From contig JAABTD010000008.1 in assembly GCA_011390065.1 (NCBI GenBank), positions 1 through 52,588 of the forward strand: 52,588 nt of DNA, read 5' to 3'. The DNA is from Desulfobacteraceae bacterium (GTDB taxonomy: Bacteria > Desulfobacterota > Desulfobacteria > Desulfobacterales > JAABSP01). Position 1 is the first letter of the stretch; each line of letters begins with the position of its first letter. Shown here piece after piece: positions 31,537-34,662 of the stretch. The notes under the pieces were generated by a model, which ran no database searches, was not told the origin of the DNA, and was given only the letters and a program-made list of their open reading frames with translations. The position numbers and the translations under genes are program-made.

Positions 31537-32106
31537 ATGAAAAAATCCATCGGCGCCAAGACCCTTCTCTACCCCGCCCCCGTTCTGGTGGTGGGGACCT
31601 ACGACGACAAGGGGCATCCCAACGTGATGACCGCCGCCTGGGGCGGGATTTGCTGTTCCAAGCCCCCCTGCGTGATGGTCGCCCTTCGGAAGGCGACCTA
31701 CTCTTATGCCGGCATCGAGGGCAACCGGGCTTTTACCATCAGCATCCCCTCGACGGCCCACGCCAAAGAGGCGGATTTCTTCGGCATGGCTTCCGGGAAA
31801 AACACCGATAAATTCGCCAGATCCGGGCTGACGGCGGCCCAAAGCGATCTCGTCAACGCCCCTTACGTGGCGGAATTTCCCGTGGTGCTGGAATGCGAAC
31901 TGCGCCACGCCTTCGAGTTGGGCCTCCACACCCAGTTCGTGGGGGAGGTCATGGACGTCAAGGCCGACCCCGAAGTGCTGGGGGACGACGGTCTGCCGGA
32001 TATGGAAAAAATCCAGCCCATGCTCTTCGCCCCCGAATCCCGCAAATACTACGGCGTCGGCGCCATCATCGGCGAGGCCTTTTCCATGGGGAAAGGGATT
32101 GGATAA
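31537..32106 (+). CDS. flavoredoxin / flavin reductase family protein
   Basis: A 189-residue FMN-binding protein of the flavin reductase-like family. Family blocks are the N-terminal PAPVLVVGTYDDKGHPNVMTAAWGG and the following CCSKPPCVMVALRK, plus FVGEVMDVKAD. Flavoredoxins in sulfate reducers act as electron carriers or transfer electrons to other proteins. CACAGGAGG precedes the ATG. The MTH938-like gene follows after six bases, so they share a transcript. Confidence 0.93.
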   Translation: MKKSIGAKTLLYPAPVLVVGTYDDKGHPNVMTAAWGGICCSKPPCVMVALRKATYSYAGIEGNRAFTISIPSTAHAKEADFFGMASGKNTDKFARSGLTAAQSDLVNAPYVAEFPVVLECELRHAFELGLHTQFVGEVMDVKADPEVLGDDGLPDMEKIQPMLFAPESRKYYGVGAIIGEAFSMGKGIG

Positions 32107-32112
32107 TCCGTC

Positions 32113-32454
32113 ATGTTGAAAAACTATCGTTTTGGCAGCATCGAAGCCAAAGGCAAAACCTACACCGACGACATCAAGGTCATCGACGGCGAGGTGGTCC
32201 CCGACTGGTGGCGGAACAGCGGGCACCGGCTGGCTGCGGCCGACATCCAGGACATCCTCACGGCCGATCCCGATATCCTGGTGATCGGCAAAGGCAATTC
32301 CGGCAACATGGCCGTTCCGGATTCGGTGGCGGACAAGATCCGGGAAGCGGGGATCGAGCTGGTCGCCGAAAATACAGGCTCGGCCGTGGAGACCTTCAAC
32401 CGGCTGCTGGACGAGGGAAAAAATGTCGCCGGCGGCTTTCACCTGACCTGTTGA
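32113..32454 (+). CDS. MTH938/NDUFAF3-like domain protein (DUF498)
   Basis: A 113-residue protein of the MTH938 fold, recognisable from FGSIEAKGKTYTDDIKV, the Trp-rich VVPDWWRNSGHRL and the conserved DPDILVIGKGNSGNM stretch. The mitochondrial homologue helps assemble complex I, but bacterial stand-alone members have no firm role. It follows flavoredoxin directly. About 107 bases with a large palindrome separate it from the selenoprotein gene. Confidence 0.92.
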   Translation: MLKNYRFGSIEAKGKTYTDDIKVIDGEVVPDWWRNSGHRLAAADIQDILTADPDILVIGKGNSGNMAVPDSVADKIREAGIELVAENTGSAVETFNRLLDEGKNVAGGFHLTC

Positions 32455-32504: not shown

Positions 32505-32561
32505 GGTTACCCGGTCCAAAATGGGGGGTGTTATTTTTCATGCATTCCAAAGGAGACATAG

Positions 32562-33197
32562 ATGACAGATCCCGCGGCGCTGGAAATCTTTTCGGACTAT
32601 ATCTGACCCTGGTGCTATTTCATCACCGGGCGTGTTGAGAGACTGAAAACCGAATTCGAGATCGATGTTCACTGGGTCGCCTTTCCCCTCCACCCCGAAA
32701 CGCCGGAGGAAGGGCGGTCCCTGGAGGACCTGTTCGCCGGCCGGCCGGTGGACATCCCGGCCATGCTCGACCGGCTCCGGCGGACGGCCGAGGACCTGGG
32801 ACTGGCTTTCGGCGACCGAACCGTGATCTACAACAGCCGCAAGGCCCAGGAGCTGGGAAAATGGGCCGAGGAGAAGGGAAGAGGGGACGCATTCCACCAC
32901 GCCGCCTTCCACGCCTATTTCGCGGAAGGGAAAAACATCGCCAAGATGGACGTGCTCACGGATTTGGCCGAAGCGGTGGGCCTCTCCGGAGAGGAGGCCC
33001 GTCGGGCGATGGAAGATGGCCGATACCGTGCGGCGGTGGACGCCGACTGGAACCGGTCCCGGGAACTGGGCGTTACGGCGGTCCCGACCTTCATCCTCGA
33101 CGGCCGGCGGCTGGTGGGGGCCCAACCCTACGAGACATTGGAGAAACTCCTGGACGACAACCAGGTAGCGAGGCGCGATGGATCCGACACAACTTGA
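32562..33197 (+). CDS. DsbA/FrnE-family thiol oxidoreductase, selenoprotein (Sec-Pro-Trp-Cys active site)
   Basis: A 211-residue DsbA-fold protein with an in-frame TGA at 32604-32606. The frame reads MTDPAALEIFSDYI-TGA-PWCYFITGRVERLK, so TGA falls exactly where FrnE-type proteins have the first Cys of C-P-W-C; reading it as selenocysteine (residue 15) gives a U-P-W-C redox centre. Downstream is a complete family sequence including the cis-Pro loop VTAVPTF, so this is not decay. The ATG has AAAGGAG upstream. No Sec signal peptide: cytoplasmic, like FrnE. It overlaps the M3 peptidase gene by 20 bases. A gene caller that stops at TGA would start it wrongly at 32748. Confidence 0.9.
32618..32640 (+). 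promoter_or_regulatory. candidate bacterial SECIS hairpin for the DsbA-like selenoprotein
   Basis: Beginning 12 bases after the TGA, 32618-32622 pairs with 32636-32640 (one G-U), then after one T-T mismatch 32624-32626 pairs with 32632-32634, leaving loop CGGGC. The first loop G is 22 bases past the TGA, as expected for a bacterial SECIS. A competing hairpin at 32607-32630 (CCC and GGTG pairing with CACC and GGG) is also possible. Confidence 0.6.
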
Positions 33198-34662
33198 GGC
33201 CCGGCTTCTCGACCTCAACTACCGGTGGAGCGCCGACGCCCTGGACCTCTGGCGGGGCGTTTCAACGCCCAAAAACGGCTACCGAATTTACGACGAGGAA
33301 GGGGATCTCCTCCGCATCGAGAACCTTGCGGTCATCGACGCCTCGCCCGACGACGGCGCGTCGACGATGTATCGATCCCGCCTCAAACACGCCCTGATCG
33401 ACCATTATCTCCAGCGGACCATGCTGCCCCACGAGCTGGAGATGCGGACCTGGATGCGCGGCGCCAGGGCCGTGGTCAACGGTGAGCGGATCACGTTCGG
33501 GGAGATCATCCCCTGGTGCCAGAAATCAAGCACTTTTGAGACCCGCCGGATCCTCCAGAAAGAAACCGGCCCCCTCTGCAAATTTCTCAAGCCCTTTGCC
33601 CTCAATTACTGGACCCTTGTCCTGGAGATGCTGACCGGGGAACTGGGATTTGCAAACTACCTCGATTATTGCGGTCGGAAAAAAGGGATCGATTACGAGC
33701 GGTTTTACACTCTGGCCGGAGAATTGCTGGAAAAGACCGACGCCGTCTATTTCCCCGTCATGGCGGCATGGACCCGCCGCCGGTTCAACCGGCCCCTATC
33801 GGATCTCAACCGGTTCGACAGCATCAAACTGCTGTGTCTGGAGGAATTCGACGATCGATATCCTGCTTCCGATCTGAGGGCATATCTCCTGTTTTTTGAA
33901 AAATGGGGCATCGATTTCGCGGCCTTGCCCAATCTCCGGCTCGAATTGGGGGCCGAAACCGAAAAAACCGCCCAAGGCATGAGTTTTTTCCTGAAAGTGC
34001 CGGAGGAAATCCATGTGCTGATGCGGCCCGAAGGCGGGTGGATCGATCTGGAGACCCTGTTTCACGAGCTGGGCCATGGTCTCTCGGCGGTCTACACCTC
34101 GCCGGCGCTCCCCGCCGTGGACCGGAACATGGCCACCTCCTTCAGCCTCTCCGAGGCCTTCGCCTTCCTACTTCAACGCGCCGTCCTGTCCCGGCCGTTT
34201 CTTACGGAGGTCATGGGGTGCGACGAGAGGACGGCCGCGGCCCTCGGCTATCACCGGACCCTCCGGGATCTCTCGGCGTTTCGCCGGTATGCGGCCAAGT
34301 TCATCTCGGAATACGAGATGTTTTCCGGCACGGATCTGGCCGACGGCCGTCCCTATGCCGATCTCATGGCCCGACATACCGGCTTCTATCACCAGCCCGA
34401 ATCCCACCTCTTCGACCTGGTCCCCGAATTCTACAGCCTCGACTATATGCTGGGCTGGATGGGGGCGGCCATGATGGAGGAGACGCTAAAGGCCCGGTTC
34501 GGAAATCGATGGTTTTTCCAGGCCGAGACGGGAGATCTTCTGAAAAGGTGGTGGTCCCAGGGGAATCGGTGCGACATCTTCGGGTTTCTGGAGAAAAACG
34601 GGTTGGGACCGCTGACCCCGGCCCCGTTGCTGACGCGCTGGCAGGACGCGCTCGGACCCTGA
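33178..34662 (+). CDS. M3-family (oligoendopeptidase F/thimet-like) metallopeptidase
   Basis: A 494-residue cytoplasmic zinc peptidase. The zinc motif H296-E-L-G-H300 is followed 26 residues later by E326 in FSLSEAFAF, the expected third ligand. The C-terminal half (FISEYEMFSG, FYHQPESHLFDLVPEFYSLDY) follows M3 peptidase layout. It is shorter than PepF (about 600 residues) because the N-terminal region is reduced. The ATG lies inside the end of the selenoprotein gene with 20 bases overlap, suggesting coupled translation. Confidence 0.88.
   Translation: MDPTQLEARLLDLNYRWSADALDLWRGVSTPKNGYRIYDEEGDLLRIENLAVIDASPDDGASTMYRSRLKHALIDHYLQRTMLPHELEMRTWMRGARAVVNGERITFGEIIPWCQKSSTFETRRILQKETGPLCKFLKPFALNYWTLVLEMLTGELGFANYLDYCGRKKGIDYERFYTLAGELLEKTDAVYFPVMAAWTRRRFNRPLSDLNRFDSIKLLCLEEFDDRYPASDLRAYLLFFEKWGIDFAALPNLRLELGAETEKTAQGMSFFLKVPEEIHVLMRPEGGWIDLETLFHELGHGLSAVYTSPALPAVDRNMATSFSLSEAFAFLLQRAVLSRPFLTEVMGCDERTAAALGYHRTLRDLSAFRRYAAKFISEYEMFSGTDLADGRPYADLMARHTGFYHQPESHLFDLVPEFYSLDYMLGWMGAAMMEETLKARFGNRWFFQAETGDLLKRWWSQGNRCDIFGFLEKNGLGPLTPAPLLTRWQDALGP

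Follow-up and report, generated by a model that had tools for sequence, protein, structure and literature searches.

We describe a gene in the window (the whole stretch of 52,588 nucleotides that was analysed) in which a TGA codon at the catalytic position is very probably read as selenocysteine (Sec). With a probability of roughly 95%, we infer that its product belongs to the FrnE subfamily of the DsbA family and acts in the cytoplasm as a thiol-disulfide oxidoreductase, with Sec as the nucleophile of what would otherwise be a C-P-W-C centre. The recoding itself is supported computationally by the reading frame, by the catalytic position and conservation of the TGA, by the complete Sec machinery of the genome and by hairpin pairing that is found only in the TGA-containing homologues.

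Results

A FrnE-like frame interrupted at its active site

The gene and its features are collected in Table 1; on re-reading the DNA, the sequence and extent (32562–33197) given in the preliminary description proved right. The ATG at 32562 is preceded by AAAGGAG (local sequence AAAGGAGACATAGATG), with 6 nt separating AGGAG from the start codon. The frame contains one internal TGA only and is open up to its stop codon, TGA 33195–33197. Directly 3' of the internal TGA, at 32604–32606, the codons CCC TGG TGC encode P-W-C. If the TGA is not recoded, GTG 32748 is the start of the longest ORF that the frame offers (149 aa), so that 62 codons and with them the whole redox centre are lost to ordinary gene callers, the very truncation that had been foreseen.

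Table 1. Features of the selenoprotein gene and of the gene downstream, in window coordinates.
Feature	Position	Strand	Remarks
AGGAG, likely ribosome binding site	32551..32555	+	by inspection
CDS, Sec-containing FrnE/DsbA-family protein	32562..33197	+	211 residues and TGA stop; internal TGA read as Sec
In-frame TGA, Sec, residue 15	32604..32606	+	first position of U-P-W-C; recurrent in homologues
TGC, Cys18, resolving cysteine	32613..32615	+	invariant in 42 homologues
Bacterial SECIS hairpin (candidate)	32618..32640	+	stem 32618–32626/32632–32640, loop 32627–32631 (CGGGC); comparative pairing
Pro175 codon, cis-proline position	33084..33086	+	invariant in 42 homologues
Downstream gene, 494-aa protein with HELGH (HExxH), M3-like metallopeptidase candidate	33178..34662	+

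The translated protein matches the Pfam family DSBA (PF01323) with an E-value of 1.8e-36 and 126 bits (cut-off 25.6) over residues 7–197. This match runs across the TGA, bearing out the earlier claim that the codon stands exactly where the first cysteine of C-P-W-C is expected and that the frame is intact on either side. Chance is ruled out as the origin of the frame because of this spanning match and because 16 of the 21 genomes with a match, as well as further contigs, have TGA at this very codon (see below). The codons of the gene differ from those of a 91%-identical relative by 11 synonymous and 17 non-synonymous changes, too few to argue for selection from this pair. When the window was searched mechanically for further frames of this read-through type, 13 candidates emerged; a Pfam scan of six of them found no domain extending across an internal TGA. 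On the opposite strand, an ORF of 226 aa (32538–33218, −) was rejected as a shadow of the high GC content, the DSBA domain lying on the + strand. Since the antisense ORF extends over the entire gene and exceeds the truncated sense ORF in length, a gene caller might pick the wrong strand.

Among proteins of solved structure, the closest by phmmer is FrnE of Deinococcus (E 2.1e-28), followed by SCO1869 (1.5e-13) and a third hit at 8e-4, and the C-P-W-C of Deinococcus FrnE aligns on the U-P-W-C of the selenoprotein. An AlphaFold2 model built with 42 homologues has a mean pLDDT of 95.9, and FrnE structures occupy all of the first five Foldseek ranks against it (TM 0.85–0.87). Sequence and fold thus agree on the FrnE-like subfamily that had been proposed at the outset. 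Six columns of the 42-row alignment are invariant, namely D12, Y13, C/U15, P16, C18 and P175; the exchange between U and C is confined to the single column of residue 15, across which the Cys homologues align exactly. Pro175 is presumably the cis-proline of the thioredoxin fold, facing the active site. Cys18 is the sole ordinary cysteine of the 211-residue translation, in which a C-terminal CXXXXC, the second Cys pair, was not found. By inspection alone, the N-terminus (MTDPAALEIFSDYI), with the first strand of the model beginning at residue 5, has no room for a signal peptide. Judged from sequence and model, the selenoprotein is thus predicted to be a cytoplasmic-type DsbA-domain protein that is closest to Deinococcus FrnE.

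The TGA is conserved in Desulfobacterales and marine Alphaproteobacteria

A search of 40 genomes, including that of the window, returned a match in 21, and in 16 of these the frame contains a TGA, which on inspection occupies the same codon in each. Searching genome collections added further TGA members from Desulfobacteraceae, Desulfocarbo indianensis and marine Alphaproteobacteria, bringing the homologous frames with TGA at this codon, the window included, to 31 across Desulfobacterales and marine Alphaproteobacteria (28 of them are distinct over the SECIS region, and a few may represent one organism present in two collections). Members with cysteine, whose codon here is TGC or TGT, come from Desulfosarcina cetonica, Desulfobulbaceae, Geobacteraceae, Chloroflexota and others.

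On a tree of the family the Sec label requires four changes, against a mean of 18.5 when labels are shuffled. The alphaproteobacterial TGA members form one well-supported clade, separate from those of Desulfobacterales. One TGA member, L048, which has U-P-F-C, clusters with the Cys members and away from the other TGA members, which suggests a separate change from Cys to Sec; this placement is consistent with more than one Cys–Sec exchange, on a tree that does not separate its deep branches and gives no order for the deeper Sec and Cys lineages. Three relatives carry two TGA-containing copies each (L036 and L048 in G005, L032 and L046 in G027, L028 and L047 in G006). The selenoproteins of the marine Alphaproteobacteria L060–L063, L065, L067 and L070, several of which are MAGs labelled Rhodospirillaceae, have a CGUGC loop in the hairpin discussed next.

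Comparative pairing supports a SECIS hairpin downstream of the UGA

The hairpin that had been noted 12 nt downstream of the TGA, with GGG in its loop, does begin at that distance, and its loop is CGGGC. Its arms, TTTCATCAC and GTGTTGAGA, form nine stem positions, comprising eight pairs and one U.U mismatch; the loop starts 21 nt past the UGA and has a G at its second position. Published rules for bacterial SECIS elements (bSECIS) specify a G within the first two loop positions, 16–37 nt between UGA and loop, a loop of 3–9 nt, an upper stem of 4–16 bp and a minimum free energy of −7.5 kcal/mol or lower (PMC13188914). The position, loop and stem of the CGGGC-loop hairpin all lie within these ranges. 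In this sequence the hairpin alone reaches −5.6 kcal/mol rather than −7.5, a threshold that belongs to the search program and does not define the protein family; the corresponding hairpin does reach it in the homologues L034, L050 and L057. Folding of the single sequence is uninformative on its own (z = +0.35 for a 60-nt fold, so that the hairpin alone is not significant), and an Rfam scan of the window gave no match above threshold.

Support for the hairpin as a SECIS element therefore comes from a comparative pairing test and not from single-sequence folding. In the TGA homologues 84.5% of cells are paired, compared with 55.0% (sd 2.1, maximum 62.3) under a synonymous null in which codons are redrawn and relatedness is ignored, whereas the Cys homologues, at 53.9%, are close to their own null of 50.7% (sd 2.2). 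When the pairing partners are slid by one to three columns, pairing falls from 84% to 31–51%. As evidence, the synonymous null is less safe than this slid-partner control and the difference between TGA and Cys homologues. Compensatory change is also seen, alignment pair 21/31 occurring as U-A, C-G and A-U.

A second hairpin, at 32606–32633, lies right behind the UGA and overlaps the SECIS candidate. It could be that Sec is inserted under the direction of this early hairpin (GACCCUGGUG...CACCGGGC), or of a switch from one hairpin to the other, rather than of the CGGGC-loop hairpin alone. The early hairpin is the predicted minimum-energy fold both in the window sequence (−10.9 kcal/mol) and in many homologues, and among the TGA homologues it is paired in 93% of cells against a null of 74%. 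However, the W-C codons dictate much of this pairing; the loop of the early hairpin, CUAUUUCAU, comes too soon after the UGA (9–17 nt) for the bSECIS model and, contrary to that model, neither of its first two bases is a G; and in most alphaproteobacterial members it is the CGUGC-loop hairpin that is stable. We regard this arrangement as unlikely and take the CGGGC-loop hairpin as the probable SECIS, though we are less sure of the exact RNA element than of the recoding.

The genome encodes a complete Sec machinery

The source genome is a draft of 5.04 Mb in 464 contigs, 98.6% complete, with the window as contig C39. SelA (610.5 bits), SelB (373.8 bits) and SelD (379.7 bits) were all found in it above their curated cut-offs, along with a single selC, a tRNA-Sec with anticodon TCA scoring 76.5 bits, above the gathering score; the check for selA, selB, selC and selD that had been proposed thus returned all four. 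The selD gene (L020:1408-2529, on contig C182 of the same genome, G000) has an in-frame TGA of its own (VAGAGUASK), and the genome therefore contains at least one further selenoprotein gene. On the same contig, selD is followed by a TusA/YedF-like gene.

Decoding of the TGA as ordinary Cys or Trp, whether by a variant genetic code or by a near-cognate tRNA, draws its sole support from the Cys that homologues have at this position, and is highly improbable in a genome with this complete machinery and a Sec-type selD and in a gene that is itself terminated by TGA (33195–33197).

Two remaining explanations would deny the recoding altogether, and we give next to no weight to either. The first is that the TGA arose as an error of sequencing or assembly, or that the gene is a pseudogene whose Cys codon has mutated to a stop: single-base errors do occur and the assembly is a draft of many contigs, but the same codon is TGA in every one of the 31 homologous frames, from assemblies of both Desulfobacterales and Alphaproteobacteria, and outside this codon the frame is both unbroken and conserved. 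The second, in which the TGA is a true stop and translation restarts to give a shortened protein with no active site, could make use of the 149-aa ORF from GTG 32748, but this restart would delete the first strand and the entire redox centre, few positions of the family are as conserved as those that flank the TGA (D-Y and P-W-C), and the synonymous choices after the TGA preserve the hairpin in TGA homologues only. Recoding of the TGA as Sec is left as the reading that we adopt.

The selenoprotein gene overlaps a candidate metallopeptidase gene

Upstream lie a flavin reductase-like gene (31537–32106) and then a DUF498 gene (32113–32454). The gene downstream overlaps the selenoprotein gene by 20 bases and is probably translationally coupled to it. 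Its 494-aa HELGH product scored above threshold with no Pfam family (Peptidase_M3 reached only E 0.05), no relative of solved structure was found for it by sequence, and an AlphaFold2 model built from three sequences was not usable (pLDDT 39); from its sequence it may possibly belong to an undescribed M3-like metallopeptidase family. The two genes adjoin in three genomes of one family, namely that of the window, one of the same genus and one other of the same family, whose HELGH proteins are 90% and 60% identical to that of the window; this conserved adjacency makes co-expression of both genes probable in that family. Other relatives have different neighbours, as far as the fetched flanks extend. 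One could imagine that the hairpins 3' of the UGA are mutually exclusive and that their exchange, for instance on SelB binding or ribosome arrival, regulates Sec insertion and thereby couples the overlapping HExxH gene to selenium supply, a scheme that we consider very unlikely.

Discussion

The selenoprotein gene is very probably real and is well supported; it adds one more member to a family known since 2005 and is not new in kind. Sec-containing DsbA-like proteins (COG2761, UxxC) were described in that year (Zhang et al., PMC1088965), and DsbA-like selenoproteins were also found in complete genomes, including that of the deltaproteobacterium Anaeromyxobacter (PMC1794560). A listing from 2016 gives counts of 41 and 45 (PMC5029168), read here as 41 organisms and 45 sequences, and a listing from 2026 includes a 'DsbA-like protein form 1' (PMC13188914). 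The gene shares with this family (PMC1088965, PMC13188914) the PF01323/COG2761 domain, Sec as the first residue of UxxC and a downstream bSECIS with a G in its loop, and at the level of published descriptions we see no difference in kind. What it adds is a further sequence, with U-P-W-C, from a Desulfobacterales genome; the expectation that it would be one more example of the reported DsbA/FrnE-like selenoproteins was correct.

FrnE of D. radiodurans (DR_0659; PDB: 5CNW, 5CO3, 5XWH) has the same fold, about a third of its residues in common and the cytoplasmic type that is predicted for the selenoprotein, but carries Cys in place of Sec and has a C-terminal CXXXXC; the selenoprotein has neither a second Cys pair nor a C-terminal extension. 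The CXXXXC of Deinococcus FrnE has been proposed to regenerate the active site, and the FrnE proteins of Streptomyces roseofulvus and D. maricopensis, which differ from the selenoprotein in having Cys rather than Sec, also do without it (PMC8945050). The motif is thus present in many members but does not define the FrnE subfamily (cd03024). The Rcas_1661 family of thioredoxin-like (seleno)lipoproteins (NCBIfam NF041057) matches in part, over the C-terminal part of the thioredoxin-like domain, but these are lipoproteins, and with 49 bits, far under the family cut-off of 190, the selenoprotein is not a member.

In the mechanism that we envisage, SelB with Sec-tRNA(Sec) and GTP would bind the hairpin with the CGGGC apical loop, and Sec would be inserted at the UGA. 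In the folded protein, Sec15 would attack substrate disulfides or other oxidised thiols, at a rate increased by the low pKa of Sec, and Cys18 would resolve the mixed selenenylsulfide. The oxidised centre would then be recycled by an outside reductant or thiol system, which would be required in a protein with neither another cysteine nor a C-terminal CXXXXC like that of Deinococcus FrnE. By analogy with Deinococcus FrnE, and given the predicted cytoplasmic location, the enzyme likely works as a reductase rather than as an isomerase or oxidase.

The gene is thus very probably a true selenoprotein gene of the kind that standard callers miss. It belongs to a Sec-FrnE group that extends across Desulfobacterales and marine Alphaproteobacteria and whose SECIS has unusually clear comparative (covariation) support. 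For the biology of these organisms it would be one more cytoplasmic thiol-redox selenoprotein, which leaves the picture of Sec use unchanged.
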